The notes below the pieces were generated by a model, which searched no databases, was not told the DNA's origin, and saw only the letters and a program-made list of their open reading frames with translations. This document shows positions 150 through 21,351 of a DNA stretch of 24,946 nt, one piece after another; within the stretch, counting starts at the first letter, position 1, and each line of letters starts with the position of its first letter. The stretch lies in IMG/VR virus record IMGVR_UViG_3300030060_004363, positions 1 through 24,946 of that record. One strand, given 5' to 3'. The translations under genes were made by a program, and so were the position numbers. This stretch comes from a virus.

Positions 150-294
150 AATCAATCTCCCAAGACGAAGACAGATTATGTGGGTGCCAACATCAAGTCA
201 ATGCGGTTTTTCCCTATAGTTCATATGTTCTATATAGAGCATATTATGTATTATATATAATATATATAAATACTCTTACATAGCTCATATGTAA
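150..294. promoter_or_regulatory. AT-rich intergenic control region upstream of the primase
   Basis: No gene is seen between the primase start (149) and the RusA stop (301). Bases 241-272 contain a single G or C and are nearly pure alternating A/T, with several TATAAT-like hexamers on both strands. An 8-base direct repeat TCATATGT occurs at 221-228 and 286-293, and a 10-bp palindrome TCTATATAGA lies at 229-238. The perfect operator-like palindrome at 295-312 borders it. It probably holds the leftward primase promoter and could also be a DNA-unwinding element or origin; neither can be proved from sequence alone. Confidence 0.5.
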
Positions 295-312
295 TTTGTA
301 CTAGGGTACAAA
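295..312. promoter_or_regulatory. 18-bp palindromic operator-like site, perfect copy 1
   Basis: TTTGTAC-TAGG-GTACAAA: both 7-base arms are exact inverted copies around a 4-base spacer. Read leftward it overlaps the last codons and the TAG stop of the RusA-like gene and lies upstream of the AT-rich primase leader. It matches sites at 3848 and 11896 exactly in both arms. Confidence 0.75.
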
Positions 313-693
313 ACACGATGTGTTTTCTAGATCTGCGTCCTGAGATATGCGCGATACTTTTATGATTGTTCTTGGCCGCTCTTTATCCAAGCCCCAGAAG
401 ATATGTTTTTGTTTTACCTGTCTGTCGTTCTTGTAGATGAAGCCCTGCATCAAATCCAATATCAGGCTTTCGTCAAGGTCAGGTCTTCTGCTGGCATAAA
501 ATATCTTCATGTGAACTGACAGGTCGCCCTCCATCATTTCGTCAAGCCTTGGACACTGGGCATTGAACATCTTTACATACAGCCTAGCCTTGTCGCTTTT
601 GATTGAAGCCGGTTTGCCGCTGATCAAAACGATCTTTCTGCTGTTGGCCTTGGATGCCGGTTCGCCCTCAATCGTGAACGAATAATTCTCCAT
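301..693 (-). CDS. RusA-like Holliday-junction resolvase
   Basis: The protein is 130 aa, close to the usual ~120 aa of RusA-type endonucleases, which cut four-way DNA junctions during phage recombination and replication. The middle carries RRPDLDES (D72, D74) followed by an acidic residue in KNDRQV (D90), the spacing expected of the RusA metal-binding aspartates. A lysine found near the first pair in E. coli RusA is not evident here (Ile at the equivalent place). The ATG at 693 is chosen because GGGGAG lies 9 bases upstream. The frame stays open to about 837, and an ATG at 711 would add six residues, but longer starts collide with the divergent exonuclease gene. It probably works with the exonuclease and annealing protein genes that diverge from it 44 bases away. 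Confidence 0.75.
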   Translation of the reverse strand: MENYSFTIEGEPASKANSRKIVLISGKPASIKSDKARLYVKMFNAQCPRLDEMMEGDLSVHMKIFYASRRPDLDESLILDLMQGFIYKNDRQVKQKHIFWGLDKERPRTIIKVSRISQDADLENTSCFVP

Positions 694-720
694 TGACTTG
701 GTTCTCCCCATTTGATAAAA
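693..720 (+). promoter_or_regulatory. candidate sigma70-type promoter of the rightward early operon
   Basis: In the 44-base divergent gap, TTGACT (693-698) resembles a -35 box and GATAAA (714-719) a -10 box, separated by 15 bases, slightly short. Transcription would start just before the AGGAG ribosome-binding site (729-733) of the exonuclease gene. It is the only promoter-like arrangement between the two divergent starts, but spacing is not ideal. Confidence 0.4.
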
Positions 721-737
721 CTCGCATAGGAGTTGTA

Positions 738-1631
738 ATGCACATAACAAACAATCACGGCTTACCACAAGCATTTGTGGACTTTGCTCGTTCTGACAAA
801 TACAGCAAGGGTGCTGCGGATATTTCTGCCACCTCACTCATCGACAGCCCTCGTGTGCGTCTGATGCGGGAGCATCATGCCAGCGACAGGCAGATCGATG
901 TTGTGGATATGATATGGCCTCTTTTCGGAACAGCCGTTCATCATGTTCTTGAGAGCAGCAAGCCATCAGATAATGTGATCTTAGAAGAGCGCCTGTTCGC
1001 AAATGTTGATGGCTGGATATTGTCTGGCGCGATAGACCATCAACAGATTACCGGCAACAGTGTTCACCTGACCGACTACAAAGTGACCAGCGTTTGGTCT
1101 GTCATCCACGGCAAGGTCGAGTGGGAACGGCAGCTTAACGTCTATGCGTATCTGGTATCAAAGTCTAAGGGCATGGATGTAACCGGCCTGTCCATCTGCG
1201 CGGTGTTGAGGGATTGGAATAAGCGCGATGCTGCTAACAGGGCCGACTATCCACAATCACCTGTGACCATCGTAGACATACCTCTTTGGGGCAGCGGTGA
1301 TCGTTTATCCTACATCCATGACAGAGTGAGACTGCATCAAGAGGCGCAGCTTGAATATGATATGGAGCAATCTTTCACCGCCTGTTCTGATGATGACCGT
1401 TGGAAGAAGGAAGACAGTTGGGCGGTGAAGAAGAAGGGCTTGAAGAGAGCCTTGCGGGTTTTCAAGGATGAAATGGAAGCCAAGAATTTCTCTGACGGAC
1501 AATCTGTCCCGACAGAGATAGAGCATCGTGCTGGGGAGTTCACGCGATGCAAGGGCAACTACTGTGGTGTTGCCGACTTTTGCAACCAGTATCAAGGAGT
1601 TAATAATGAGTGTTTGGGAAACGCTATCTAA
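738..1631 (+). CDS. PD-(D/E)XK exonuclease, RecB/Cas4-like
   Basis: A 297-aa nuclease of the PD-(D/E)XK superfamily. The core shows a conserved Glu around 83-84, ILSGAID (D100), then LTDYK (D113, K115) and a helical QLNVYAYL motif at 132-139, matching motifs II, III and the downstream Gln of RecB/Cas4/lambda-exonuclease-type enzymes. Near the C-terminus four cysteines (C271, C276, C282, C292) in CKGNYCGVADFC suggest an iron-sulphur cluster like that of Cas4 and AddB, or a zinc site. It would resect DNA ends to make single strands for the next gene, an annealing protein. The ATG at 738 is used because AGGAG lies 5 bases upstream; a longer frame to 693 lacks a site. It is first in the rightward operon and overlaps the following gene by 26 bases. 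Confidence 0.8.
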   Translation: MHITNNHGLPQAFVDFARSDKYSKGAADISATSLIDSPRVRLMREHHASDRQIDVVDMIWPLFGTAVHHVLESSKPSDNVILEERLFANVDGWILSGAIDHQQITGNSVHLTDYKVTSVWSVIHGKVEWERQLNVYAYLVSKSKGMDVTGLSICAVLRDWNKRDAANRADYPQSPVTIVDIPLWGSGDRLSYIHDRVRLHQEAQLEYDMEQSFTACSDDDRWKKEDSWAVKKKGLKRALRVFKDEMEAKNFSDGQSVPTEIEHRAGEFTRCKGNYCGVADFCNQYQGVNNECLGNAI

Positions 1632-2262
1632 GATCGATGTGTCTAAGCACACAGAAGAGAAGAATGGCCTGACATATCTCAGTTGGGCTTGGGCTTGGGG
1701 GATTGTGAAGCAACACTATCCCCTCGCCAGATTTCAAAAGAATTTGTTCGATAGTACAAATACCAAGATGCCATACATGATGGACCCCTCGGGTTTCGCT
1801 TTTGTATCGGTCACGGTTTTTATCGAAGAAGAAGAACAGACAGAGTTACTTCCTGTTCTAGACTATGCGAACAAGCCTGTCGCCAACCCCAACAGCTTTC
1901 AAGTGAATACCGCCCTGCAAAGGTGCCTTGCCAAGTGCTGTGCCATGCACGGACTGGGCCACTACATCTATGCCGGTGAGGATTTGCCCCAAGGCGTCGA
2001 GAGGACCGTTTCCATAGAGGACGCTGAAGGCAATAAGAAGGACGTACAGGGCCTTGAGACGCTGGCAGAGGTGTTTACCACATGGATACCCGAATGTGCC
2101 GACATAAGCTCTCTGAGGGGCTTCTGGGCGGCAAACAAGGAGGCCATAGAAATACTCCAGAGTGGTGACAGAGAACTCTATGACAAGGTCTACAGGCTGT
2201 TCATAGATCGTTCAAACACTTTGAAAAAGAAAGACGCCAAACCAAAAGGAGAAGCGGCATGA
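1606..2262 (+). CDS. DUF1071-family single-strand annealing-type recombinase
   Basis: A 218-aa protein whose N-terminal half reads WETLSKIDVSKHTEEKNGLT then YLSWAWAWGIVKQHYP, the signature of DUF1071 proteins. These are phage proteins found beside exonucleases and regarded as Rad52-fold annealing (Sak-like) recombinases. The middle part, with NTALQRCLAKCCAMHGLGHYIYAGEDLP, is also typical of this group. The C-terminus is lysine-rich (LKKKDAKPKGEAA). The ATG at 1606 has AAGGAG upstream and removes a 26-residue extension that lies inside the exonuclease gene. Together with that exonuclease and the SSB-like gene downstream (ATGA overlap), it forms a Red-type recombination set. The family call is strong; the annealing role is inferred from family and neighbours. 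The gene carries a near-perfect operator-like palindrome at 1743. Confidence 0.8.
   Translation: MSVWETLSKIDVSKHTEEKNGLTYLSWAWAWGIVKQHYPLARFQKNLFDSTNTKMPYMMDPSGFAFVSVTVFIEEEEQTELLPVLDYANKPVANPNSFQVNTALQRCLAKCCAMHGLGHYIYAGEDLPQGVERTVSIEDAEGNKKDVQGLETLAEVFTTWIPECADISSLRGFWAANKEAIEILQSGDRELYDKVYRLFIDRSNTLKKKDAKPKGEAA
1743..1760. promoter_or_regulatory. 18-bp palindromic operator-like site, one mismatch, inside the DUF1071 gene
   Basis: TTTGTTC-GATA-GTACAAA matches the palindrome at 13 of 14 arm positions with the same 4-base spacer. It lies within the coding region (residues LFDSTN). An intragenic copy could act as a roadblock or looping site rather than a classic promoter operator. Confidence 0.6.
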
Positions 2263-2573
2263 CTGATTACCCACCCGGTGGCGTTCTGTTTTCCAACAAG
2301 CGCAAGAAGACAGAGACGCAGCCAGACTTTACTGGCGATCTAGAATTGTCGGACGAGGTTGTGTCCGATCTGGTGAGCCAGATAGAGCGAGGCGTTAAGA
2401 AGCCTAAGATAGCCCTAGCTGGTTGGAAGAAGGTCAGCAAGAAGGGCCTTCACTTTGTGTCTCTGAGAGGCTCTGTGTTCAAGGAGCGTGAAGAGCGCCC
2501 ACCACAGAAGCCAGCGGACGACTTCAACATGGGGCCGTCGAAGGTAGCGGATGAAGACACAATTCCGTTCTAA
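2259..2573 (+). CDS. small SSB-like protein with acidic IPF tail
   Basis: A 104-aa protein ending in DEDTIPF, very like the DDDIPF tip that bacterial single-stranded-DNA-binding proteins use to dock partner enzymes. Before it comes a short domain with IALAGWKKVSKKGLHFVSLR, resembling the strand pattern of small OB-fold or DUF736-like proteins (Trp-Lys, then a glycine and a beta strand), and a proline-rich linker (ERPPQKPADDF). It starts in an ATGA overlap with the annealing-protein gene, implying coupled translation. Role as the phage SSB is inferred from the tail, size and position; no full canonical SSB fold can be confirmed. Alternatively it is a partner that mimics the SSB tip. Confidence 0.6.
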   Translation: MTDYPPGGVLFSNKRKKTETQPDFTGDLELSDEVVSDLVSQIERGVKKPKIALAGWKKVSKKGLHFVSLRGSVFKEREERPPQKPADDFNMGPSKVADEDTIPF

Positions 2574-2835
2574 GAGGGTGAGGTTAGAGCGGTATCTCAA
2601 ATCATTGCGTGGTCAGCCATGCTTGATTTGCGGTACTGGCTCTGAGGCTCACCACATCATGTTCGCAGAGCCAAATGCTATGGGGATGAAAGTGGGAGAT
2701 AACTGGTGCGTTCCTTTGTGCCACACATGTCACATGACACTGCATGCTTTTGGCGATGAAAAAACATGGTGGGATCTAAAAGGTGTAGACCCCTTGGCTT
2801 GGGCCAAGAGTAATTGGGAGAAGTTCAATGGATGA
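2551..2835 (+). CDS. HNH-like nuclease (DUF968/Ref-like)
   Basis: A 94-aa protein with a compact zinc-finger nuclease pattern: CLIC (C24, C27), EAHHI (H34, H35), then VPLCHTCHMTLH (C57, C60, H61, H65). The order CxxC...HH...CxxCHxxxH and the K-x-GDNWCVPLC run match small phage HNH proteins of the DUF968/recombination-enhancing nuclease type, which nick or cut DNA during recombination. The frame starts within the last 23 bases of the SSB-like gene. The ribosome-binding site is weak, and a GTG at 2578 (nine codons in) is an alternative start. It ends inside the start of a micro-ORF (2828). Confidence 0.75.
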   Translation: MKTQFRSKRVRLERYLKSLRGQPCLICGTGSEAHHIMFAEPNAMGMKVGDNWCVPLCHTCHMTLHAFGDEKTWWDLKGVDPLAWAKSNWEKFNG

Positions 2836-2941
2836 TGAATGCGAATACGATCAGGAATGCGATTACAGTGAAGTGATCAATGGCGAATGCGAGTGCTACA
2901 ACCGCAAGTCTGAAGAAGAAGAAGCGAGGTGTCCGGTATGA
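2828..2941 (+). CDS. micro-ORF: 37-aa acidic Cys-rich peptide
   Basis: An ATG at 2828, eight bases before the end of the HNH gene, opens a 37-codon frame to a TGA at 2939-2941. The TGA overlaps the ATG of the next gene (ATGA at 2938-2941). The peptide begins MDDECEYDQECDYSEV, has five cysteines (positions 5, 11, 21, 23, 35) and a run of four glutamates (29-32). The double overlap and the otherwise empty ~100-base gap argue that it is translated. Function is unknown; a small metal-binding or anti-host inhibitor peptide is possible but unsupported. Confidence 0.5.
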   Translation: MDDECEYDQECDYSEVINGECECYNRKSEEEEARCPV

Positions 2942-3174
2942 GTGACGAGGACGATCTTTGCTACCTGCCGACAAGGCGTCTTTGCTCCTTAAACGAGAGA
3001 TTAGATGCCAGCTTCTTCCCAGAGGGCCTTGACGATGTCTTTAAGCAAGAGGTCATCACATACAAAAGGTTCGATGGCGGCATCAGAATAGAAAAACATA
3101 TCAGAAATTTTTCTGGTGGCTCTCACTATGACTGTCAGTCGTCAGAGATAATGTTGAGTGGAGTGAGCAAATGA
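2938..3174 (+). CDS. unknown small phage protein
   Basis: A 78-aa protein starting MSDEDDLCYLPTRRL and ending in a section with FSGGSHYDCQSSEIMLSG. No known domain is recognised. The ATG at 2938 has GAGG 8 bases upstream; a GTG nine bases earlier (2929) is possible. It is chained to both neighbours by ATGA overlaps, so it belongs to the recombination operon. It is acidic at the N-terminus and soluble, with no membrane segment. Confidence 0.65.
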   Translation: MSDEDDLCYLPTRRLCSLNERLDASFFPEGLDDVFKQEVITYKRFDGGIRIEKHIRNFSGGSHYDCQSSEIMLSGVSK

Positions 3175-3656
3175 CAGAGGTATCAGAAGCTGCCATTCAC
3201 TTTGAGGCTGTCAAAACATCGATGTCTCAAAGCAAGGCCGGAACCATACTGAGGATAGCCATTCACCCGAATGATGTGCCGCCCAGCTTGCATACCGATT
3301 GGGTAGGCTCAAGGTACATGGTGGCAATGGTGAAGCTGGATGACGAGGATCAGCCAGAGATATCTGATGATCAGCGTCAGGCAAAAGCTCTAGTCGCCAG
3401 TGCAGGTATGCTTTGTAGGAACGAAGATTTCCGCAAATTCTTGGACAGCCAAGACCTGCTTTCTTTCTCGCCAGATCACTGGAACGTGGATGGAGATGGA
3501 GATAAGTGGTCAGACCTAGAGGCTTTAACAGCAAGATGCTTGCGTAGTTACCTTCACATCGAAAGCAGATCAGAGTTGGCTACAAACTCTGAAGCAAGGG
3601 AGAGGTTCAAGAAACTTCAAGAGGATTTCACGCTATGGAAGAAAAACAGACCGTAG
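3171..3656 (+). CDS. conserved phage protein of unknown function
   Basis: A 161-aa soluble acidic protein. The section LRIAIHPNDVPPSLHTDWVG then RYMVAMVKLDDEDQP resembles a family of hypothetical proteins that I associate with replication/recombination clusters of marine phages; no enzymatic motif is visible. Its ATG overlaps the preceding stop (ATGA), with GGAG 7 bases upstream. The last 22 bases overlap the start of the AlpA-like gene. Its steady company with nuclease and annealing genes suggests a role in DNA metabolism, but that is inference only. Confidence 0.65.
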   Translation: MTEVSEAAIHFEAVKTSMSQSKAGTILRIAIHPNDVPPSLHTDWVGSRYMVAMVKLDDEDQPEISDDQRQAKALVASAGMLCRNEDFRKFLDSQDLLSFSPDHWNVDGDGDKWSDLEALTARCLRSYLHIESRSELATNSEARERFKKLQEDFTLWKKNRP

Positions 3657-3847
3657 AGGGCGCATCTTCACAGGAGTTCATGGGGATCAAGGATATCAGT
3701 GAACTTCTGTCGATGACCCGCAAACAAGCCTACTACATCACAAAGACAGACAAAGACTTCCCAAAGGGCATCAGTCTAAGCCCGAGGATCAAGAGGTGGA
3801 AAACTGCTGAAGTGATGTCTTGGCTAGAAACCAAACAGGACGATTGA
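3635..3847 (+). CDS. AlpA/excisionase-like helix-turn-helix protein
   Basis: A 70-aa protein with a winged HTH of the AlpA/MerR-like type: MGIKDISELLSMTRKQAYYI (helix-turn-helix, residues ~16-35), then FPKGISLSPRIKRWKTAEVM and SWLETK. The typical AlpA pattern is 'tPrvrRW...evreWL'. Such proteins bind DNA as small activators, repressors or recombination directionality factors. No integrase is in view, so a transcriptional role is more likely here. AGAGGA lies 9 bases upstream of the ATG. One base after... its TGA stop begins the perfect 18-bp palindrome at 3848, making it the leading in-window candidate for the palindrome-binding regulator; this link is inferred. Confidence 0.7.
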   Translation: MEEKQTVEGASSQEFMGIKDISELLSMTRKQAYYITKTDKDFPKGISLSPRIKRWKTAEVMSWLETKQDD

Positions 3848-3865
3848 TTTGTACGATGGTACAAA
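3848..3865. promoter_or_regulatory. 18-bp palindromic operator-like site, perfect copy 2
   Basis: TTTGTAC-GATG-GTACAAA starts directly after the stop codon of the AlpA-like gene and ends 14 bases before the ATG of the basic protein gene, just ahead of its GGGAG ribosome-binding site. This is the one place in the rightward operon where genes are not overlapping, suggesting that room was kept for the site. Confidence 0.75.
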
Positions 3866-3879
3866 ACGGGAGAACGAAA

Positions 3880-4122
3880 ATGAATGACGTATCGAAGCGT
3901 AAATACAAAATCAAAAAGAAAGACCGCAAGCCTTGGTCAGAAGCTGCCAAAGAGGCTCAAAGTGAGCGCATGAAAGAGATGTGGAGGCTGCGTAAGCTGA
4001 AGACACAAAAGGCCAAGCTGGAGAACAAGGTCAATGCCGGTAAGGTTTACCTGACCCTCGCAAACAAGGTCGAGCCTAAGCCAATGTGGAAGCGCATCAT
4101 TGATGCCATATTGGGGCGGTAA
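3880..4122 (+). CDS. small highly basic protein, unknown
   Basis: An 80-aa protein dominated by Lys and Arg (KRKYKIKKKDRKPW near the start), with a long predicted helix (residues ~20-55, SEAAKEAQSERMKEMWRLRK onward). It ends in MWKRIIDAILGR, an amphipathic tail. Its SEAAK..QSERM section recalls the NUMOD-like helices near phage nucleases, but no full domain is present. The ATG at 3880 has GGGAG 7 bases upstream; an upstream in-frame ATG at 3820 lies inside the AlpA gene and is ignored. Nucleic-acid binding is plausible from charge only. Confidence 0.6.
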   Translation: MNDVSKRKYKIKKKDRKPWSEAAKEAQSERMKEMWRLRKLKTQKAKLENKVNAGKVYLTLANKVEPKPMWKRIIDAILGR

Positions 4123-4511
4123 TGTATCCCTGTCCTGAATGTCACTCAAGGGGTACGCGGACCAGAGACAAAGCTAATGTAACTCTCTGGCCCTACCCCC
4201 AAGTGACCCGACATCGGGTCTGCGATGATTGCGGAACACACTTCATCACAGCAGAAGAGTTGTTCCGCGTCATCAAGCCAATACCAAAGCTAGGTAAGAA
4301 GCACAGCTTCCCTGTAAAGCAACGTCTCCAAGGCAGAGGGTATATACAAGAGGCCCTGAAAAAGCTGGAGATTGGCGATTACATCATGGCAAATAACAAA
4401 AGACAGGCCGTCGCTTTGCAGGGCGGCATGATCAAGCTGTGTGGCGCTGGTTGTATGCGGGTACGAAAATCTAGGAAGTCAGACAGATATGTTTGCCAAC
4501 GGATCAAGTGA
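4122..4511 (+). CDS. zinc-ribbon protein (NrdR-like ribbon)
   Basis: A 129-aa protein. The N-terminus has CPEC (C4, C7), then VTRHRVCDDCGTHFITAEEL (C34, C37). The Arg-rich approach to the second knuckle and the HFITAEE ending resemble the zinc ribbon of NrdR, which represses ribonucleotide reductase genes. The ATP-cone that follows in NrdR is absent; instead there is a basic region with YIMANNKRQAVALQGG and late cysteines (CGAGC and a final C). It starts in a TAATG overlap, the last gene of the rightward operon, and ends one base from the convergent giant gene. Likely DNA- or RNA-binding; exact role unknown. Confidence 0.6.
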   Translation: MYPCPECHSRGTRTRDKANVTLWPYPQVTRHRVCDDCGTHFITAEELFRVIKPIPKLGKKHSFPVKQRLQGRGYIQEALKKLEIGDYIMANNKRQAVALQGGMIKLCGAGCMRVRKSRKSDRYVCQRIK

Positions 4512-4512
4512 A

Positions 4513-7500
4513 CTAGATATCTGCTTCGCCCATAATCCTATTTCCCCTTTGAATGAGTGCCTCTAGATTTTCGCGCAACCGTTCCGTGATCTTTTCCTTT
4601 TGATCGTCGGTCAAGTTTTGGTTAGCGTCTACCTGTCTTAGCTTTCTTAAAAGCCTATTCCTTGCGCTATTGATGGCTCTAATCTTTCCGAACACAGACA
4701 GTTCTTTTTGATATCTGCTCCTGACATCTCTCACTGATGATGGGTCTCCACCCTCAATCGCGCTTTCAAGCACCTCTCTGGCTTTCAGAACCTTGTTCCT
4801 GTTCTCGATAAAGCCTGAGACATCTTCTCTCTCAGATACGCTGTAGAACACTTTGCGCAAGAACGGTGTTTGCCTAACAAACTCGTCTTCAAAGCCCTCT
4901 GAAAGAGCCTCTGGCATGGTTTTCGTCGTAAAGTCTATGGTCCTGTTTACAAACATACCAGCACCACCAGTTAGATAGTTCAGCCAGTAGTCAATGATAT
5001 CGGGCGAGAAGTCGAGCAGACCACTTTCCACCTGACTACCGCCGGTTGCCTTGTTGATATTGTCAGCTACCCACTTCAAAGATGGGCTGGTGGTTGACCA
5101 GTACAGTTGACTGTTTGGTGGCGGCGTTGGGTCGAATGGACTTGTCTCTTTGACGATGGGCCGACCAGAGAACTCTTCTTCGTTTCGCATTATATCAACA
5201 AATGGGTCTGCGATTGTCGGGGCTGCAAAGTTAAAGAAGTTGTTTGTGCCGCCAAGTGGGTTCAGCGCGTCTGCTGCCGTCATAAAGATACTGGATGTGG
5301 CTTCTCCAATATCGTATCCGCCCCTTAACGAGCGACTTAACGCACGGCCAAGATTGTAGCCGATGTTCAAGCCATACGGCAGGGGTATGGAAAGGTGAGA
5401 CCGCTCTGACGGACCCAACCCTCCCAAGGGCAGCAGGATATTATGTTCAAGAATGTATTCTGGGGCCTTGTCGTATACCAACTCACCATCCTCATCCTCA
5501 TCTGAGAAGGCTGCGTTTAGTTGGTCGAATGCCACACCGGCCATTATTGTTGAAACCCATATCTTGCGAACTTTGGATGAACGTGTGGCTGCATTGATAA
5601 GGGCAAACGAGCCTTGCAGCGAGGCGTTATAGAACAGATAGACAGAGTTCATAAAGGGCTTAAACTCCCCGCCCTTAGCGAAGTCTACCGTCACGTTTCT
5701 CGCCGCAAATGCGGCCCGTTCAAACCCTATCTTTGGTGCAAGAGATTTAAATGCTGCAACACGAATGGCGTTTTCAACGACCGTGTTGTAGTCATCAAGA
5801 AGATTGAAAAGCGATCCTACCTTTTCGCCGACAAAGCTGTTTTTCACGGAGTTCCATTTCCCTCTGGCTCCGCTTTCAGCGATGTCTCCAACTATGCCCT
5901 TGATACCGTTAAGCTGGTCTTGGAGGGTGTCCATCGTGTTGAGGGCATTTTGACCTCCGTATATTTGGAAGAGACGAAACACATCTGCCGGACTTGCTTT
6001 GTTGATGTCAAAGTCCGCAGCCTCTGCCATTTCTTTTGTGATGCCAGACGGCAGTTCAAGTTTACCTGTCTGCTTGTTCTTACGCATTCCACGCACAACA
6101 TCTTTGACCCCCTTGAAGGAGGACAGATAGTTTGTTTTTAGCTCACTTGTCAGGCCATCAATTTCATATTGATTGATGTTCACACCTGCTGTTTGCAGGT
6201 CTCTGAAAAGGTTAGTTATCAAAAACTCTGGGTTGTATGTGGTGTTGATGTTTGACAGGTATCTATTGACCTTGCCAAAGCCACGGACAATGCCTGACAA
6301 AGTTTCGTTAGATACACCAGTTGCACCCTTGAGGGCCTTGGCAACTCGCGGGTCTAGGGTCTTGATGAGAACCTCTTTGCCACCCTCTTTGACAACAATT
6401 ATTGAGTCGTCGTTTTTGGCTTGGAAGTCATAGATCATCTTGACCGCGCCTTCTACCAAGCCTCGGCGCATGGGAGGGCTTTGTAACTCGACGGCAGTTC
6501 TAGACATCAACTCTGGCTGCGACCTGATCAGATTTAAAAACGACTGACCTACTGCATTCTTCTCTGACCTGATAACAGCATTTTGATTTTGCATGAATGT
6601 GCCGGCAAGTATGCTGGTTGCATACTCGTATCTACCAAGCATGCGTCTGTCTTCCTTGCCCCTGATGCTGAATGTCTGTCCACGGGCCGCGCCAAACGAA
6701 CCATCTTCGCTTGCCTCGCCCTCTGGATCTAATATTCCCCTGAGAGGCACATATTCTTGGAAGTTTGGTGCGTCTACCTTCTCACCCTGCTCATTCACAT
6801 CTACTTGGCCGGTGTTGAAGTCTTCTGGGATCAGGCCGCCCTCAACACGAACCTTGTTGGTGTCGGCCACAATATCTCTGACGATGGACCTAACATCCTC
6901 TAGAACCTGTCTGTTCTTTGCATCAAGACTGTTTACCCAGTTAATTATCCTGTCTGCCTCTGAGTCCTGCATTCCAGAGCCAGCGTCTTCGCCGGGATTG
7001 ATCGATCTTATGTATTCATTTCTTTCTTTGGCATGCAGCGCGTATAGATATGCGTCTGTTACAGCAAGTCTTCTGCTTCCTGTGTTTTTCTCTGAGTTTC
7101 TGACAAATTCGCTGGCAGCAGCGAGCGCCTCGTAATTTGTACCCGCGTCTAAATCGAGTTCTTTTACCTTGTTTGCCGCTGGCTCATAGAGGGCATTCTT
7201 TGCTTCTTCTATACGGTTGCCAACGCGGCCATGGTACAAGCTCTCTTGCAAGTATGGATCAAACGCATCATCGATTGTTGCACCCTGCGCTCGCAGCCTG
7301 TCTACAACTTGCGCGATGGGAAGGAACCTGTCTTGGAACAGATCGCCAAAGGTATTGGCTGCTTTTTCTGCCGCTTGGTCACTGCCCAAAGTTGCCAGTT
7401 TCAACGCCTTTTTCAGAACATCATATGACTTAGAATAGACAATGCTGTTCTGTGCTTGTCTGATGTGTGCCGATGAAAAATCAACTGGCAATGACGACTG

Positions 7501-10500
7501 ATCAACTATGCGTCTTTTATAATCCTTTTGTCTTGGGAAGGCTGTTGCTACAGTGTATATGCCATCTCCAGACCGTAGTCTCTTGGGAGGTATGAACGCC
7601 AAATCAACAACTATGGGCGGCGATTTTCTTAGGGGCCTGTTCATGATCAGCCTGATACTTTTACCGGCACCAAGCTCACTAATTACTTCTTGACCGTCTC
7701 TGTAGCCCTGTTTTGCCCAAGTCTCCATTACATCAAATATTGGCTGCTCTATATCTGTGTATTTGCTGCTTTCGATAAACTCCTGAACGTGATTCCGCTG
7801 TATAATGTGGTGCAAGCCAAAATCTGCGAGGAATGGCACTCTATATCCAGTTGACTTGTCTTGACCAACCATAAGAGCCACTGGATACTGACCGAAATTG
7901 TCCTTTATCAAACCAAATGTTGTTGGATTTTTTAGGGTTGATATATCTCCTTTGGCCGCGGCCTTTTTCGCCTTAGGATTGTACAGAAGCTGGAACGGCT
8001 TATCCAAGGGGAGTTGAGATAAATCAACATCTGACAAAGCCTGATCTCTAGACTGATCAGAGAAATCTTGAATAGCCGCCTGTTCTTCATTTGTAAGGTT
8101 TTCTGTGAACGCCTCTTGAGCTTCAGGATCGCTGAACTTTTTTACGTCCATAGGGCTGAATATTGCTGCGGCCCTGCCTATGCTGCTGTCAGACCAATAG
8201 CCCACATAGCCAGCATCATTGATCATCTTTTCTAAGATACTTAGCTGTAGACTGGTGGTGTCTGCTGCTCGTGACTGCTCCGAGAAAGGAACAACATCTC
8301 TTTCGGCAATCTCTCTAGCTTTTGTGCGGAAGCCATCGGGGTCAGATTTGATGTCGTACAAGGATGTGAGCGGGACTTTTGTTTCGTACCTATTCTTGCC
8401 CACGCCCCACTCAACTACATAACCGCCCTCTTGGCCCACCTCTAAACCAAAATAACTGCGAGGTGGATATATTTCTCCATATCTACCGCCAGCGCCGTGC
8501 ATCTTGCGCCTTATTTCCTCTTCCCCACGCATGCGGAAGTTAGACCCCTGACGCAGTGGGTCTATTGATTGCAGGTCTGATTTTTCTGAAAAATGCGTAA
8601 GGGTGACTAGGCCGTCTTCATCTGTCTGCGGAACGCCCTCTCTTGCAACGCCTCTCTGGACTGCTTGGCCCTCGACTCCAAGATCAGCCTCTCCTCTTCC
8701 ATCTCTTGCGCTTCTTCCGCCGATAGACCGGACATCTCCCGCTGTATCAGGTTGTCTAGCGCCTTCTCTGAGTTCTTGTCTTCCACGTTGTTTCTCCTGT
8801 GCAATAGGTAGCCCAGAAAAGTCTGAGGCTATCCCTTCTTCCATAGCAAAAGATGGAAGGATTGTCAGCTTTTGTGGTGCATAAACTGTATTTTCTCTGT
8901 CGGCTCTGTTCTGCTCTCCGAACGGACCAAAGTTTACCCACGAGTTTTGGCCTCGTGTTTCGCTTGTCATCGCTTGGGCAGCGAGTGGACTATACATCCT
9001 GTGATGTGCCTGCCATGCGTTCTCTTCACCACGAGCGGTGAATGTTGTCCCCTCTAAACCATGACCAAAGTAGTCGTGGACGATACGGAATATGTCATTG
9101 ATTGTTGCTGGCTCACCATCAATTATCTCGCCAGAGTCAGCAAGCATTGGGTTCTCTGCAATATCTTGCTCTGTAATCTCTGACTGACCGAATCCATCTT
9201 TCGTGGCAAACACGAACAGATGATTGTTATCCCTGATATCCTCAAGCACATCTCTTGATCCACCGGGATAGGGATTCGGACCCCTGATAAACTCTATTTC
9301 TATGCCAGTGTCTTTTACAAACTGCCACTGTGCCATCGTCTCTTCAGCCATGGCCTTGTAAGCAGCTTGAACATTTGGATCGAAGGGTGTGTTTTCGGCC
9401 TCTTCGTATGCGTTAGCAATTTTTGTAGCCAACTCCTGATCGACCTTTACATACTCTGACTGCCTTCTATTTGGCATGCCAACAGATGCCAGATATTTCG
9501 CCTTTGCCTCGTTAACAACAGGTATTGGGCCGATCAGGTTTGTCGGAAGATTAGGCAGCCTATCTATACTCGACACAGGCACAGATGACTGATCTGCTTC
9601 TATTTCAGATCTGCTTCTGACCATTCCGGGCAGCCCGGACTTTCTCTGTCCTATTTTCCCAGACTGAATGCCATCGAATATGTCCTCTACCTTTGCGAAA
9701 CCAGCAGCAGAGTGTACGTCTTGTACGCGCTTGAAGAAGTTCACAATGCGTTGGAAGAGAGTGAGCGGCCTGCCAGCAACCTTCAGCTTTCCATCAGCCC
9801 AAGCGCGGAACATTTCCGCTACAGCCTCTTCTGCAACTCTCTCGTTGTATGCTTCCTTGGACTCGTTCTGCCTCTGTTTGTTTATCTGCTTTGCCCTGTC
9901 GAGGAACGTGTAATTTCTCTCTACAAGCTCTCCGTCTTGAGAAACAACAAACCTTCGCTTCGATGCTGCGTTCTTGAGAACATCAAACTCTTTTTGAGTA
10001 AACAGGCCAGAGTCTCTCAAGGCGTGTATCACTTCGTGATTTAGGACACCTCTCAACTTATCAAGTCTCTGGGCCTGACTTAGAGATGGATCGTATATGC
10101 CCATGGCCAACGTAATTAGTTTGTTGGATGGCCTGTAGGAGCCTTCAACAATTCTGCCGCCGCCGTCATCAGATATGACAAACTCTGTACCAAGCTTTAC
10201 ACCAGCGCCCTTGCCAACAAGGGTTCTCAGGTCTTTTTTAAGCTGGCTGATTATTTTGGCTTCTTGTTGCTGATACTCAACTCTGGCTTCAGCTTTTGAT
10301 GCCTCTCTGGCAGCTGCCAGCGCAAGATTAGAATCCTCTTGCGTGAACTTCTGATCTTTAAGCTGACCCTGAGCCTGTGTTCTGCTGTCAATCGTGTCTA
10401 CTTGACGCTGAATATTTCTGGCCTCAGCGCGGGCAGCAAGCAGAGTCTTTTCTATTTGATCTCTTTGTTGTCTAGAAGCTAGTAGCGCGGCCTCTTGCTC

Positions 10501-12246
10501 CGTGGTGAGGTCGCCTATCTCCAGTATCTTTTCTTCTGTCTCTTGCTGCTTTTTTTGGTCAGCCTCTAGCCTGCTGATCTTTCTTTTTTGTGCTTCAACG
10601 AGATTCCTGAGAGGCTGGGCGGGGTCAGTTTGAAGCTCTTCCTCTGAGACTGCATCGAATTTATTAGGAGATGTTTGTGCAACAACTCTGTTGACCACCA
10701 TCTCGTCTCTGATTTTTTCGGCAGTCTCTCTGGTTACAGGCTTGCCCTTTTTCGTCTTAGCGACCTCTTGTATGCCCTCAATAGTTATTGCGCCATCTTC
10801 TTTGGCCTTTGCCACAGAGGCATCGTACTGATCTTGATTGAAGGGGCGTCTAGCCGTTGCTCTGTTTTCTGGGCGGTTGTCCAGAGCGCCAAGTTGATCA
10901 GCCTGTATCTGATCTGCCAGATCGTTAAGACCATAATCTCTTAATTCTGCCGGAGTGATGGTGTCTATTTGCTCTCTTTGTAATCCCTGACGGTTCAGCC
11001 CAACAGTCAACTGTGCGTTGTTATCTGGATCATCAGGAAGCTGCGAGACGTTTACAGGCTCATTGCCAGAATCGATCTTGTTTCTTTCTTCCTGCAACTT
11101 GGCTTGCGCCGCTGCCTCTTTCTCAAGGTTCAGCCCCTGACGAGCAACAGCTTGGGACACAGCTTCATCTGGAGCCAGATCAGCTTGTTTCTTTTCTGAT
11201 GCTGCTAAATCAGATTGTATTTCGGAGCCAAGTGCGCCTGCGTCTTGTAGGGCTTCGGACTCCAGCCTCTTTTGAGCCTGCTTTGGGCTTTCTCCCTTGA
11301 AGCCACCAACAAGACCTATGGCCTTACCGCCTATGGCACCACGGATGCCAGCTTCCATTATTCTGTCTACGTTATCGCCGCTGAAGAAATCTATGTTTTC
11401 ATCAACTATTTTTGCAGCAAGAAGATTGTTGGACTCTTGTATCCCCTCTGTCAGACCCTCTGTTACAGCGCCCTTTCCTCCGGCTATGAAAAGCCTAGAT
11501 ACGAGCGCCCTAGCCACCTCATCCCTGCCCTTTTTGGTCAGCCTATTTACAAGGGCTACAGGCAATATTGCATCAAGAGATGCGTTCACACTTCCAGTTA
11601 CAAATGCGAGTGCGGCCCGCTTCTCTCCTGTTTCCTCTAATATTGATGTGTATGCTTCAGGTATTGTTTGAGAGCCAGCCCCGGCAACAGAGCCGGAAAG
11701 AAAACCTATTCTTGTTCCCTTTTGAGCGGCTTTCTTGGCCGCATCTCCTACAAGTTTTTTAGCAAATCTTTCAGCGGACTTTTTGCCGACAAAACCACCA
11801 ATTCCACCACCAGCGATAGATGTGAGGATTGATGGGACAAACTGACCTATGGTTTCTGCGGCGTATACAGAAGCATCACCCAGATCTTCTATGTCTTTGT
11901 ACGTTGGTACAAATGATGGGGCCTCTCTGTTGATGGCCTCCATAGTCTCTTCATATTCTGCTAATTGCCTGTCTCTGTACTCATCAGCGCCAACAAGGTC
12001 AGCGGCCACGGCAGGCAGGGCGTCAGTGAGCAGTGCGCCTGTTTGCCTGATACCCCTATCAAGACCGCGCCTGAAGCCAGATATGATACCAGCCTCTTCT
12101 TCCTGCTCCGCTGGCGCAGCAGAGGCGTCTCCGAGGCCAACCAAGACCTCGTTTATCTTCTGCTGTTCTGTTTGATTGGGAGACAGGCCAGATATATTGA
12201 ACGGGTATACTCTGCCTGACTGTCCTTGGACGTATGTAATAGGCAT
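4513..12246 (-). CDS. giant polyvalent internal virion protein (2577 aa)
   Basis: The largest gene here, last in the late operon. In order: a hydrophobic/Gly-rich N-terminal part (about 137-215) that could insert into membranes; a Gln/Glu-rich coiled coil (~546-690); a zinc metallopeptidase motif HEVIH (737-741); an unassigned domain with HDYFGHG (1057-1063) and ETRGQNSW (from 1096); a charged linker; an ADP-ribosyltransferase-like domain (~1212-1370, starting LTHFS); a possible BECR-fold nuclease (~1425-1580, H1479/H1480, YTVATAFP near the end); and an LPD38-like region (~1990-2235, TTYNPEFLITNLFRDLQ onward). Such strings of enzyme domains mark phage 'polyvalent' proteins thought to enter the host with the DNA. 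Position matches T7 gp16, the last ejection protein. GGAG lies 5 bases upstream of the ATG. Two palindrome copies (7136, 11896) lie inside. Domain limits are estimates. Confidence 0.85.
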   Translation of the reverse strand: MPITYVQGQSGRVYPFNISGLSPNQTEQQKINEVLVGLGDASAAPAEQEEEAGIISGFRRGLDRGIRQTGALLTDALPAVAADLVGADEYRDRQLAEYEETMEAINREAPSFVPTYKDIEDLGDASVYAAETIGQFVPSILTSIAGGGIGGFVGKKSAERFAKKLVGDAAKKAAQKGTRIGFLSGSVAGAGSQTIPEAYTSILEETGEKRAALAFVTGSVNASLDAILPVALVNRLTKKGRDEVARALVSRLFIAGGKGAVTEGLTEGIQESNNLLAAKIVDENIDFFSGDNVDRIMEAGIRGAIGGKAIGLVGGFKGESPKQAQKRLESEALQDAGALGSEIQSDLAASEKKQADLAPDEAVSQAVARQGLNLEKEAAAQAKLQEERNKIDSGNEPVNVSQLPDDPDNNAQLTVGLNRQGLQREQIDTITPAELRDYGLNDLADQIQADQLGALDNRPENRATARRPFNQDQYDASVAKAKEDGAITIEGIQEVAKTKKGKPVTRETAEKIRDEMVVNRVVAQTSPNKFDAVSEEELQTDPAQPLRNLVEAQKRKISRLEADQKKQQETEEKILEIGDLTTEQEAALLASRQQRDQIEKTLLAARAEARNIQRQVDTIDSRTQAQGQLKDQKFTQEDSNLALAAAREASKAEARVEYQQQEAKIISQLKKDLRTLVGKGAGVKLGTEFVISDDGGGRIVEGSYRPSNKLITLAMGIYDPSLSQAQRLDKLRGVLNHEVIHALRDSGLFTQKEFDVLKNAASKRRFVVSQDGELVERNYTFLDRAKQINKQRQNESKEAYNERVAEEAVAEMFRAWADGKLKVAGRPLTLFQRIVNFFKRVQDVHSAAGFAKVEDIFDGIQSGKIGQRKSGLPGMVRSRSEIEADQSSVPVSSIDRLPNLPTNLIGPIPVVNEAKAKYLASVGMPNRRQSEYVKVDQELATKIANAYEEAENTPFDPNVQAAYKAMAEETMAQWQFVKDTGIEIEFIRGPNPYPGGSRDVLEDIRDNNHLFVFATKDGFGQSEITEQDIAENPMLADSGEIIDGEPATINDIFRIVHDYFGHGLEGTTFTARGEENAWQAHHRMYSPLAAQAMTSETRGQNSWVNFGPFGEQNRADRENTVYAPQKLTILPSFAMEEGIASDFSGLPIAQEKQRGRQELREGARQPDTAGDVRSIGGRSARDGRGEADLGVEGQAVQRGVAREGVPQTDEDGLVTLTHFSEKSDLQSIDPLRQGSNFRMRGEEEIRRKMHGAGGRYGEIYPPRSYFGLEVGQEGGYVVEWGVGKNRYETKVPLTSLYDIKSDPDGFRTKAREIAERDVVPFSEQSRAADTTSLQLSILEKMINDAGYVGYWSDSSIGRAAAIFSPMDVKKFSDPEAQEAFTENLTNEEQAAIQDFSDQSRDQALSDVDLSQLPLDKPFQLLYNPKAKKAAAKGDISTLKNPTTFGLIKDNFGQYPVALMVGQDKSTGYRVPFLADFGLHHIIQRNHVQEFIESSKYTDIEQPIFDVMETWAKQGYRDGQEVISELGAGKSIRLIMNRPLRKSPPIVVDLAFIPPKRLRSGDGIYTVATAFPRQKDYKRRIVDQSSLPVDFSSAHIRQAQNSIVYSKSYDVLKKALKLATLGSDQAAEKAANTFGDLFQDRFLPIAQVVDRLRAQGATIDDAFDPYLQESLYHGRVGNRIEEAKNALYEPAANKVKELDLDAGTNYEALAAASEFVRNSEKNTGSRRLAVTDAYLYALHAKERNEYIRSINPGEDAGSGMQDSEADRIINWVNSLDAKNRQVLEDVRSIVRDIVADTNKVRVEGGLIPEDFNTGQVDVNEQGEKVDAPNFQEYVPLRGILDPEGEASEDGSFGAARGQTFSIRGKEDRRMLGRYEYATSILAGTFMQNQNAVIRSEKNAVGQSFLNLIRSQPELMSRTAVELQSPPMRRGLVEGAVKMIYDFQAKNDDSIIVVKEGGKEVLIKTLDPRVAKALKGATGVSNETLSGIVRGFGKVNRYLSNINTTYNPEFLITNLFRDLQTAGVNINQYEIDGLTSELKTNYLSSFKGVKDVVRGMRKNKQTGKLELPSGITKEMAEAADFDINKASPADVFRLFQIYGGQNALNTMDTLQDQLNGIKGIVGDIAESGARGKWNSVKNSFVGEKVGSLFNLLDDYNTVVENAIRVAAFKSLAPKIGFERAAFAARNVTVDFAKGGEFKPFMNSVYLFYNASLQGSFALINAATRSSKVRKIWVSTIMAGVAFDQLNAAFSDEDEDGELVYDKAPEYILEHNILLPLGGLGPSERSHLSIPLPYGLNIGYNLGRALSRSLRGGYDIGEATSSIFMTAADALNPLGGTNNFFNFAAPTIADPFVDIMRNEEEFSGRPIVKETSPFDPTPPPNSQLYWSTTSPSLKWVADNINKATGGSQVESGLLDFSPDIIDYWLNYLTGGAGMFVNRTIDFTTKTMPEALSEGFEDEFVRQTPFLRKVFYSVSEREDVSGFIENRNKVLKAREVLESAIEGGDPSSVRDVRSRYQKELSVFGKIRAINSARNRLLRKLRQVDANQNLTDDQKEKITERLRENLEALIQRGNRIMGEADI
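7136..7153. promoter_or_regulatory. degenerate copy of the 18-bp palindrome inside the giant gene
   Basis: TTTGTAC-CCGC-GTCTAAA matches 12 of 14 arm positions with the standard 4-base spacer. The left arm is perfect. It lies in coding sequence, so function is less certain than for the perfect copies. Confidence 0.35.
11896..11913. promoter_or_regulatory. 18-bp palindromic operator-like site, perfect copy 3, inside the giant gene
   Basis: TTTGTAC-GTTG-GTACAAA is identical in both arms to the junction copies, yet it encodes residues FVPTYK about 112 residues into the giant protein. It lies some 330 bases after the gene's start, where a bound protein could block elongation or anchor a loop. Confidence 0.65.
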
Positions 12247-12248
12247 TT

Positions 12249-14546
12249 TTACTCCGGTGAAGCTACATCAAACATACCTAAACCGCCACCACCCATGCCA
12301 AACGCTTGTTGCTCAAGCAAGTCGGCGAACAAAACATTTCTAATTTTTTCCTGTTCGGTGGCTAATGGGTCATTGGCCAGTTTTCTGAACGCCTCTGCTC
12401 TTTGAAGCATTTGATTCTTGGTGAACTCTTGGCCGCTCTTTTTTTGCAATTTTGCTTTAGCATTGATCAGATCAACGACACCTTCTTGATATCTGTCTTG
12501 CGCCTCACGGAATGCGGTCAGACCGCTGACGCCAGCCTCTCCCACCGCTCCAAGAAGCGTAGGCTCTTTGGATGACATGAGAGCCAAGCCAGCTTGTGCC
12601 AAAGCCAGATACTTGTCTGTCTCCCTGTCTTTTTCTAGCTTTGCCTGAAGGTCTGCTATCTCTTTTGCAAGTCCAGTTTGAGGTGTTGACTCATCATCTG
12701 AGGCCCCTCTCTCTGGCTTCGCTTTAGATTCCGGCATGGTTGGCGGCGCAGTTGGGGCGCTACCAAGATCGTCGCCATCTCTGCCATCATCAAGGCTTGC
12801 TAAATATTCAGCCCTTTCCCCCGGCTGTTCTGCGCCTCTCTGACTTGCTCTGATTATTCTTTCGACCTCTTTCTTCGCATCCTCAACGGTCTTCGAGGCT
12901 GCCTCACTATCGCCTGCCATAGCCTTTTCTGTAGCTTCCTCTGCTGCCTGTTTGGTGAAATCAGCAGTGGCTTCTTGTGAGCCTACATCAGAGAATGGCA
13001 TCGCTCTAGAGGCCGGGGAATCTCCGGCCATTCCATCAACGTCAACATTCCTGCCAAAAAATGCCCTATATTCAGACGGAGACATTGGCTTTTTGCCTGC
13101 CATTCTGGCCCGCCTTACATGGGCTTTGTATTCATCACTCTCTCCAGTGATCTGATCCCCATAAATCTCTTCAAGATATTCTTGTTGTTCGCCCCGAGCC
13201 TGCCCAAGAAGATCTTGTCTTGATCCAACCCTCTCTGAGGTTGGGACGTTTGCGTCCCTTCCCAATGCAAAAAGCTCACCAAGACTAGACGGGAAAGGAA
13301 CGCCGCCCTTGTTGGCCTGCATCTCATCGAATATTTCTTGCGGCGCACCCACCTCAGTCATTGCTGGTCCAGCCCCCTGCGCCTGTGCCGTGCTTATGGG
13401 GTTAATTGCTGATGCGATTTTGGATATGATTCCCGGCTCATCAGAGCCACCGAGGATACGAGCCACCTCTTCTGGATCATCTGTGCCAGCAGCCTCAATG
13501 GCGCGAGATATCTGACCTTGTGAATATCTGTCACCAAAATCACGCCCCTGCTCAAAGCCCACGATAGCGGGTATCAACTCATCTCTGCGCGACTTCAGGT
13601 CAAACTCTTCATCAGGGTCCATGCCAAGCTGTTCACCAAGATACGAGACATAGTTGTCAAAACTAGCTTCGTTATCAGACCTTGGGGCATATCTTGATGT
13701 TAGGCCACGCAAGGTGTTGATGCCATACTCATCGCTGTATGTGCCAAGAAGTCTAGCAAGAGCGCGTAAGCCCTCTTCCTCTGAGCCAAACTGGGCGTAA
13801 CCGCTACCTTGGCCCGTCTCACCTATAAAACCAGCACCGGGGCGTATGTTTCCGGGGTTGTTCTGACGCAAGCCAAGTGGAAGCCCATTGGCAGCCCTTA
13901 CAACACCACCCTCATCATACTTTTGAACTGGGGAGGGCATAACCTGAAGCTCTGCAACAGGGTTTGATTGAGCGCGTAGGGTTGCCATCCGGTTCATGCC
14001 CAGCATCGCGCCGCCCTTGCCGCCCGTTCTAGTTCTTCCAAAGGGATTGGGCATACTCGTACCCATAGTAGGGGCCGGAAATCCCTGATTAGGGAAATTT
14101 GGCACCGGCATAATAGACTGACCAGAGCCAAATGATCCAGAATCAACGCCAAACTCTGTCTGAGCCATCTGCTCTACTTCGTCTAAAAACGGATCTATTT
14201 GTTCGTTTTTTGTTTTTTCAGCTAGGCTTCTTTGTATCTCTGCACCGAACTGCATAAGGCCGCCAGACCTCATCGCTTTTTGTACCATGGTACTTTTTGG
14301 TGCCATGGCCTCAGACATGCCCGCAATGCCGCTCTGAGGAACGCCAGCAGACGCGACCGCCTCTTGCGCCACCGTGGGCTGCTGTGCGGCCTCACGCTTT
14401 GTAAAGTCATCGCGAACACGCTTGCGGCGCTTGATCTCACTAAGGACAAGAAACTGAGGCGCAGACCCTGTTGGAGACTGCATTTCGGAGACAAGCTGTT
14501 GTTCTGAAAAATTTTTAAGCTGATCTTGAATATCAATTATGTTCAT
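12249..14546 (-). CDS. internal virion protein with NNPGN muramidase-like domain (765 aa)
   Basis: Three parts are visible. Residues 1-110 (LSEIKRRKRVRDDFTKREAA then SGIAGMSEAM) are a helical head with a style common to phage internal proteins. A Pro/Gly/Met-rich linker follows and ends in YDEGGVVRAANG. Residues ~224-350 begin LGLRQNNPGNIRP and continue through YAQFGSEEEGLRAL and FDNYVSYLGEQLG, the 'NNPGN' domain of phage virion-associated muramidases/transglycosylases that open the cell wall during DNA entry. The rest is acidic and disordered, then a helix ending with LALAQAGLALMSSKEP and a membrane-like GLTAF stretch. The gene lies between a likely ejection protein and the giant gene and overlaps the former by 4 bases. 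The cell-wall role is inferred from the domain. Confidence 0.75.
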   Translation of the reverse strand: MNIIDIQDQLKNFSEQQLVSEMQSPTGSAPQFLVLSEIKRRKRVRDDFTKREAAQQPTVAQEAVASAGVPQSGIAGMSEAMAPKSTMVQKAMRSGGLMQFGAEIQRSLAEKTKNEQIDPFLDEVEQMAQTEFGVDSGSFGSGQSIMPVPNFPNQGFPAPTMGTSMPNPFGRTRTGGKGGAMLGMNRMATLRAQSNPVAELQVMPSPVQKYDEGGVVRAANGLPLGLRQNNPGNIRPGAGFIGETGQGSGYAQFGSEEEGLRALARLLGTYSDEYGINTLRGLTSRYAPRSDNEASFDNYVSYLGEQLGMDPDEEFDLKSRRDELIPAIVGFEQGRDFGDRYSQGQISRAIEAAGTDDPEEVARILGGSDEPGIISKIASAINPISTAQAQGAGPAMTEVGAPQEIFDEMQANKGGVPFPSSLGELFALGRDANVPTSERVGSRQDLLGQARGEQQEYLEEIYGDQITGESDEYKAHVRRARMAGKKPMSPSEYRAFFGRNVDVDGMAGDSPASRAMPFSDVGSQEATADFTKQAAEEATEKAMAGDSEAASKTVEDAKKEVERIIRASQRGAEQPGERAEYLASLDDGRDGDDLGSAPTAPPTMPESKAKPERGASDDESTPQTGLAKEIADLQAKLEKDRETDKYLALAQAGLALMSSKEPTLLGAVGEAGVSGLTAFREAQDRYQEGVVDLINAKAKLQKKSGQEFTKNQMLQRAEAFRKLANDPLATEQEKIRNVLFADLLEQQAFGMGGGGLGMFDVASPE
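14279..14296. promoter_or_regulatory. degenerate palindrome copy with perfect GTAC-N4-GTAC core
   Basis: TTTGTAC-CATG-GTACTTT keeps the left arm and the GTAC-N4-GTAC core (14282-14293) but loses the right AAA. It is inside the 765-aa gene, about 250 bases after its start. It may be a weak site or chance. Confidence 0.3.
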
Positions 14547-16840: not shown

Positions 16841-16849
16841 GCCAGTCTC

Positions 16850-17994: not shown

Positions 17995-18389
17995 TACTTT
18001 GTGATCCCTTTTACCTTTTCTACAGTCCTGAGACCGCCAAGACCCAACATACCCAACAGAACAGTCATCAGGCTGTCCATATCAAAGGTCGGTAGCTCCG
18101 GTATCTCTATCCCTAAGTATGAACATATGAACATTGTGACAGGGGCGAGAACAAAATGCCATGCCATAGCGAAAGAAAGACACCAGCCAAGGAATGGACG
18201 CCATCCTGCAACGAATATAGACCTATGCTGCGCCTCTGCCTTGTTGATCTCTATCTGACCCATATTGGCTTCGTGCATCTGCTTTTCAGCCATGGTCGCT
18301 ATTTCATGCGCCAACTTCGCTTTCTGATCCTTGTCCTCTATGAACTTGTCCAAAAGGCCCGTAACTGGTCCAATTAACGCCTGTAACAT
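17994..18389 (-). CDS. GTA-type three-TM holin
   Basis: A 131-aa membrane protein. The N-terminal third is a Lys/Glu-rich amphipathic helix, then HRSIFVAGWRPFLGWCLSFA opens one or two membrane segments (about residues 62-92). A last segment MTVLLGMLGLGGLRTVEKVK closes the protein. The WRPFxGW and LLGMLGLGGLRTxEK motifs are the hallmark of the GTA_holin_3TM family, which makes the pores that let the lysozyme reach the wall. I choose the ATG at 18389: GGGAG (18400-18404) is then 10 bases upstream, whereas a GTG at 18398 would be one base from it. The gene lies between the EF-hand protein and the 233-aa unknown, with lysozyme next. Confidence 0.85.
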   Translation of the reverse strand: MLQALIGPVTGLLDKFIEDKDQKAKLAHEIATMAEKQMHEANMGQIEINKAEAQHRSIFVAGWRPFLGWCLSFAMAWHFVLAPVTMFICSYLGIEIPELPTFDMDSLMTVLLGMLGLGGLRTVEKVKGITK

Positions 18390-18408
18390 TGCTAACACTC
18401 TCCCTGTT

Positions 18409-18732
18409 CTACTTGCCTTTGGCTATCCACGCGGTTGTCCCCATGTAGGCCCCCACGATACCAGCGCCTGAAATGTAGAATAATGACGAAATTTCTGAAA
18501 GGGCCTGTATTCTCTCTATAGAAACCCACGGGGTGAACATGGCAAGCGTAAAAAGGCCCATGCCTATCAAGGTGAATCTTGCCATTCTTAACTGAGCTAG
18601 GCTCTTTCTCAGGTCTCTCTCTGTTTCCTTTATTTCCTTGGCATGCTCAAGTTCTTCGTCTGTGACGACGCCATCGCCATCCATGTCGTATTGATCGTAT
18701 TTGCTCTTATTCTGTAGCTTCTTGCCGGTCAT
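18409..18732 (-). CDS. EF-hand membrane protein of the lysis block (107 aa)
   Basis: The N-terminus carries one full EF-hand calcium loop, DMDGDGVVTDEE (residues 16-27, with Asp/Glu ligands at loop positions 1, 3, 5 and 12). A charged helix and then two membrane segments follow (about 53-70 and 82-104). Similar EF-hand plus membrane proteins occur in marine phages next to holins, so it may tune lysis timing or be a second holin or spanin-like partner; this is inferred. The operator-like palindrome at 18742 sits 10 bases upstream of its ATG; no strong ribosome-binding site is visible between them. Confidence 0.7.
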   Translation of the reverse strand: MTGKKLQNKSKYDQYDMDGDGVVTDEELEHAKEIKETERDLRKSLAQLRMARFTLIGMGLFTLAMFTPWVSIERIQALSEISSLFYISGAGIVGAYMGTTAWIAKGK

Positions 18733-18741
18733 GTCGGTCTA

Positions 18742-18759
18742 TTTGTACTATGATACAAT
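18742..18759. promoter_or_regulatory. 18-bp palindromic operator-like site, two mismatches, upstream of the lysis block
   Basis: TTTGTAC-TATG-ATACAAT matches 12 of 14 arm positions with the same 4-base spacer. Read leftward it overlaps the final codons and TAG stop of the 143-aa gene and lies just before the EF-hand gene, the same layout as the copy at the end of the RusA gene. Confidence 0.55.
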
Positions 18760-21344: not shown

Positions 21345-21351
21345 ATCGCAC

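Follow-up and report, generated by a model that had tools for sequence, protein, structure and literature searches.

The IMG/VR virus record IMGVR_UViG_3300030060_004363 was analysed over a fragment of 24,946 bases (the window), which is therefore less than a whole phage genome. Early genes at 301-4511 encode RusA, a PD-(D/E)XK nuclease, the Sak annealing protein, a single-stranded DNA-binding protein, an HNH protein and AlpA, and a late block on the minus strand encodes a 2577-amino-acid LPD38 protein together with tail and virion proteins. An 18-bp palindrome, here called type A, is scattered through both regions, and its reader is probably c23, an undescribed phage protein family that we identified by comparing sequences. 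The first-pass annotation had listed seven copies and had judged the three perfect ones too many to be accidental. All seven are present, with positions and mismatch counts unchanged (Table 1), and their excess was upheld: nine matches with up to three mismatches were found in the window, compared with 0.68 expected from dinucleotide shuffling (maximum 4 in 100 shuffles). The two further matches, at 4450-4467 and 23319-23336, each have three mismatches, score poorly against the family weight matrix and are probably due to chance.

Table 1. Copies of the type A palindrome in the window, with their scores against the family weight matrix
Position	Sequence	Match	Context	Score
295..312	TTTGTACTAGGGTACAAA	perfect	overlaps stop (3' end) of RusA-like gene 301-837(-)	28.5
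1743..1760	TTTGTTCGATAGTACAAA	1 mismatch	within Sak annealing-protein gene 1606-2262(+)	26.2
3848..3865	TTTGTACGATGGTACAAA	perfect	immediately 3' of AlpA-like gene 3635-3847(+)	30.0
7136..7153	TTTGTACCCGCGTCTAAA	2 mismatches	within gene 4513-12246(-), 2577 amino acids	21.0
11896..11913	TTTGTACGTTGGTACAAA	perfect	within gene 4513-12246(-), 2577 amino acids	21.9
14279..14296	TTTGTACCATGGTACTTT	3 mismatches; weak and uncertain copy	within gene 12249-14546(-)	13.2 (weakest listed)
18742..18759	TTTGTACTATGATACAAT	2 mismatches	junction of genes 18748-19179(-) and 18409-18732(-)	25.4

A scan with the Sak protein yielded 79 further loci on metagenomic contigs, in which genes were called with a simple script. 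In 974 kb of related loci the motif occurred 32, 98 and 60 times at 0, 1 and 2 mismatches respectively, and it is present in a clade of those loci. Fifteen permuted control palindromes gave 0, 0-4 and 0-28 matches at the same thresholds, and altered spacer lengths gave almost none. The weight matrix, built from 97 non-redundant sites, describes a 20-bp palindrome, ATTTGTAC-bATv-GTACAAAT, which extends the 18-bp form by one A/T on each side and has a non-random centre. Near-complete relatives (57-60 kb) carry about 10-14 copies each. Scanning of phage and relatives thus showed the motif to be enriched and permuted palindromes to be almost absent, and the earlier suggestion of a phage-wide element kept at the same junctions in relatives was borne out. 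The site at 295..312 is shared with three relatives (G001, G002 and G003). Most type A relatives, even where protein identity falls to about 57-68%, have a site at the corresponding position in sak, and the site at 7136..7153 recurs in L121, L122, L126 and L132. The weak copy at 14279..14296 may reflect coding constraint, since G021 has an identical 20-mer in the homologous gene, and G012 has it there in reversed form. The product of 4513-12246 is a 'polyvalent' protein with an LPD38 domain, and is probably an internal protein of the virion that is ejected.

In loci that lack type A sites, the same junctions carry another repeated palindrome with this geometry. In type B it reads aAAAGTT(A/C)-N4-(T/G)AACTTTt, with 11 exact cores in genome G014 compared with 0.008 expected, and in type C, found in G022 and its relatives, AAAGTTC-N4-GAACTTT. 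Of 215 loci, 103 were assigned to type A, 75 to B and 14 to C, the 23 left undecided being short or distant. A distant cultured phage, the Synechococcus phage MinM2 (L239/L240, OQ594354.1), carries 37 copies of cGGTTCAG-N-CTGAACCg, and these 15-bp palindromes often lie in short gaps between early genes. The letters are specific to a lineage but the system of dispersed palindromes is not, which is a new result. No comparable set of palindromes was found in the cultured or complete relatives HTVC023P, HTVC027P, 023Pt_psg01, DSL-LC04 and CRP-901. One genome, G044 (L406/L407), has five copies of AAAGTTA-N5-TAACTTT, with a 5-bp centre, beside sites of the usual spacing. The records OQ594354, OL906435 and PP438419 name different cyanobacterial hosts, yet all three are 65,014 bp long and agree in their match statistics; with the GC content of MinM2 at 69%, the hosts stated would bear checking. 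A host search of bacterial collections matched only short or phage-length contigs in metagenome bins, with conflicting names, and yielded no host assignment.

The sites are concentrated between genes. Across 15 genomes, 107 of 164 sites (65%) are intergenic, compared with about 22 (~14%) expected, and 49% of the 164 lie no more than 50 bp from a stop codon, compared with 13% expected. Type A and type B genomes have 54 junctions in common; sites are present at 16 of these in A and at 11 in B, with 10 used by both (P=3e-6, computed with junctions as independent). Genomes with a site at the AlpA/c25 junction (window site 3848..3865) number 8 of type A, 2 of type B and 1 of type C; for the c32/c56 junction (window site 18742..18759) the counts are 4, 2 and 1 respectively. 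Between c23 and the TerS gene, which is divergent from it, sites occur in all three types. Compensated changes in the arms numbered 10, compared with 9.72 expected for independent halves; arm changes are therefore uncompensated, which favours a DNA-binding dimer over an RNA hairpin or terminator, and the latter was rejected. Junction sites often lie shortly upstream of a gene, and sites occur near the c23 start region in all three types, as would be expected if each transcription unit had one conventional promoter operator or activator site for c23. However, -10-like hexamers were not enriched near sites (1.80, compared with 1.84 at random intergenic positions), -35-like hexamers were fewer (0.73 compared with 1.30), and the coding regions of sak, primase and c25 contain conserved copies. 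We regard the promoter explanation as quite improbable.

The c23 proteins are about 220-240 amino acids long; their gene opens the early operon and is closely followed by a MoxR-ATPase/VWA pair. The occurrence of 22 conserved gene families was compared between genomes with and without dispersed palindromes of types A, B, C or MinM2. c23 was present in all compared genomes with such palindromes, and in none of the 12 without. A c23 profile built without MinM2 produced two matches in that phage, MM2_72 and MM2_92 (E 2e-8 and 7e-8), whose palindromes had been found beforehand, and none at E<1 in the other 12 genomes. MinM2 is the sole cultured phage in which c23 was seen. Two of these 12, QDWS535 and GB2A, are remote and have their own unrelated repeated palindromes of other geometry. 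In the Alcaligenes phage vB_Af_QDWS535 (L248, OK172329.1), which lacks c23, there are 10 exact copies of TCCTAA-NN-TTAGGA, mostly in the early region. G042 (L419), a relative also lacking c23, has four copies of GACCT-N3-AGGTC near TerS and MoxR, at 13459, 15336, 16220 and 17416. In G026 (20690-23068) and relatives, a conserved early gene pair combines a MoxR-type AAA ATPase with a DUF2201/VWA metallopeptidase-like protein.

Genome G022, with its B-like motif, has most early genes nearest to type A, but its c23 (43% to B, 32% to A) and TerS are nearer to B. TerS was tried as a reader, sharing this discordance, and was rejected: it is present in G040, G041 and G042, in which no strong dispersed palindrome was found, and primase is likewise present there. 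MoxR/VWA was rejected because it is present in G042, where c23 is absent. The AlpA-like protein encoded next to the 3848 site had been put forward in the first-pass annotation; it belongs to a winged-helix DNA-binding family, the site follows its gene in type A, and MinM2 also has an AlpA. It did not hold up as the reader, being missing from G043, G044 and G045 in spite of their 5-11 exact type B sites. The locus is otherwise intact, both AlpA-flanking genes being present in all three (with 9 bp between them in G044), and AlpA is also missing from G048, which has type B sites. Moreover, its recognition helix differs between phages sharing one motif, and the AlpA of G022 is closer to type A when the motif of G022 is not. 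We therefore consider AlpA a very improbable reader.

A host regulator such as LexA was a further candidate. The cyanobacterial LexA box has the core GTAC-N4-GTAC, which the type A sites resemble, and cyanobacteria are the recorded source of the nearest cultured relative. The outer bases, the lineage variants and the covarying protein all differ, however, and neither LexA nor any S24 peptidase was found in the phages. Relatives with the same c23 family carry quite different site sequences, the presence of c23 predicts sites, and the letters of the sites track residues of c23, a phage protein; reading by a host regulator is hardly credible. MerR-family operators, such as that of mer (CCGTAC-N4-GTACGG), are 18-bp dyads with a 4-bp centre, located in the promoter spacer. 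The dyad and the 4-bp centre are alike, but no promoter signal is enriched here, and the sole MerR-like protein, AlpA, is probably not the reader.

To relate the sites to c23, we used 34 c23 proteins with less than 85% identity. Positions 85-92 read M-A-x-K-x-x-K-N in type A, mostly x-x-K-K-x-x-E-N/K in type B and T-x-K-R-x-x-E in type C (consensus by eye). Position 91 is one of two alignment columns that part A from the rest perfectly (K in 14/14 A and 0/20 others), and position 88 is the sole column that parts C from B perfectly (R in 3/3 C and 0/17 B). A c23 tree that leaves out this helix implies four or more switches of motif type, and its three type C proteins fall in three separate places. 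Base 7 of the half-site is C in 97% of cases when residue 88 is R; when it is K, base 7 is C in 92% in type A, and A in 61% and C in 28% in type B. Two small sets have N at residue 88 (G016 and L155, 12 sites; C 33, G 42 and T 25%) or Y (G048, L307 and L372, 18 sites; A 64, G 22 and C 3%). Both MinM2 copies have K-R..E (by eye), and the MinM2 half-site includes GTTC, like type C. Residues 85, 88 and 91 vary with the motif in lineages that are independent of one another, and the variation at base 7 goes with residue 88. As the letters of the sites change in step with three c23 residues, c23 probably reads the palindromes. The sites, their conservation, their placement at junctions, the change of letters from one lineage to another and the covariation of protein with DNA are all computed results.

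The AlphaFold model of c23 (pLDDT 87, pTM 0.72) contains a helix-turn-helix, formed by a helix at 65-77 followed by one at 83-100, and a long C-terminal helix of 50 residues at 173-222. Residues 85, 88 and 91 lie on one face of helix 83-100. They had been noticed before this model was available, although an earlier, poorer model already hinted at a helix there. We infer that c23 physically binds the sites, dimerises and affects RNA polymerase. Two subunits, probably joined by the C-terminal helix, would each place recognition helix 83-100 on one half-site, residue 88 contributing to the choice of base 7, and residues 85 and 91 to telling TTTGTAC from AAAGTT. With about 10-37 sites in each genome, most of them at junctions and some beside its own gene, bound c23 would most likely limit transcription. 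The sites at the c23/TerS junction in types A, B and C suggest that it is autoregulated. As sites lie at gene ends in both early and late units, an elongation block, by analogy with stoperators (PMC9283540, PMC6550527), would be the simplest explanation. c23 may thus be a stoperator-like elongation roadblock and autorepressor that divides expression along long transcription units in lytic infection. We think it fairly probable that the palindromes are dispersed, transcription-limiting operators of this helix-turn-helix protein.

Several observations weigh against this interpretation. The c23 gene lies outside the window, and is known from G001 (2843-3535), a neighbour overlapping window positions 1-3714 at 94% identity, which is the basis for the link. 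The c18 and HNH genes also track the palindromes, except in one incomplete contig, so that presence alone leaves both in. Phylogeny alone also fails to single out c23, because the split of A from the rest recurs in trees of TerS, primase, MoxR, c20 and AlpA. Searches of c23 against Pfam, PDB sequences and PDB folds gave no significant match, and a profile of its helix-turn-helix region matched the TetR regulator 2qtq at E ~2, too weak for use. The missing promoter signal beside the sites is compatible with elongation control, and is not proof of it. About one-third of the sites are intragenic, with conserved copies within sak, primase and c25, and the intervals between early-region sites vary less than random ones do (coefficient of variation 0.23-0.67 compared with 0.73-0.89; P values 0.016 and 0.001 in the two type B genomes). 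Such placement would also fit a c23 that reads the sites mainly to organise phage DNA, as a sequence-specific protein of the nucleoid-like or bridging type that has a long coiled-coil, rather than to control transcription. The presence of sites in both early and late regions and within c25, a gene of 8-9 kb, the even spacing in the early region and the 50-residue helix would all suit this role. A strong preference for junctions, and for particular junctions across lineages, would however be needless for mere organisation, and no ParA was found; we think it unlikely that organisation is the main function.

Sixteen records, several near full length and several fragments, contained no tyrosine or serine integrase (PF00589, PF00239), ParA (PF13614), HTH_3 or S24 family, and so show no sign of lysogeny. 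A partition-type role, proposed earlier, lost ground with the failure to find a ParA family ATPase, the search covering PF13614 (AAA_31/ParA) only. The proposed resemblance to the stoperators of L5 was sustained, in that there are many dispersed sites, most of them in the short gaps between genes. Cluster A mycobacteriophages (L5, Bxb1, TipsytheTRex) have more than 20 short repressor sites genome-wide, many of them intergenic and away from promoters, and the site sequence varies between lineages along with the repressor protein (PMC9283540, PMC6550527). Shared features are the number of sites beyond chance, their placement in short intergenic spaces and the joint change of site and protein specificity. 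An L5 site spans 13 bp, lacks symmetry, is oriented with transcription and is contacted by one protein monomer carrying two DNA-binding domains, whereas the sites described here are 18-20-bp palindromes with both halves conserved. No homology of c23 to the L5 or TipsytheTRex repressor emerged, since it matched known repressors neither in sequence nor in fold, and no HTH_3 repressor was found; a temperate life style like that of cluster A phages would call for an integrase or ParA, and neither was found in the 16 records. By analogy, the palindromes most likely work as mycobacteriophage stoperators do, as dispersed operators. KfrA-type plasmid proteins are autoregulators with a DNA-binding head and a long coiled-coil tail (PMC7821693). 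The similar head and long helical tail of c23 come with no detectable homology to KfrA. We know of no genome-wide spread of operators for KfrA.

These results use sequence alone to link DNA sites to an orphan family of phage proteins, with a residue-to-base rule that can be tested directly. They also provide a natural series in which all the sites of a genome have changed together with their reader, in phages showing no sign of lysogeny. The wider proposal is that a new DNA-binding family controls virulent podovirus-like phages through genome-wide palindromic roadblocks, with at least four specificity classes set by residues 85, 88 and 91, each followed by the rewriting of at least 12 sites per genome; to this we would give slightly less than an even chance. 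The system opens to testing why a lytic phage should need stoperator-like sites, and how the specificity of a regulator changes when a dozen sites must follow. If the proposal is true, it would represent stoperator-like control without lysogeny.

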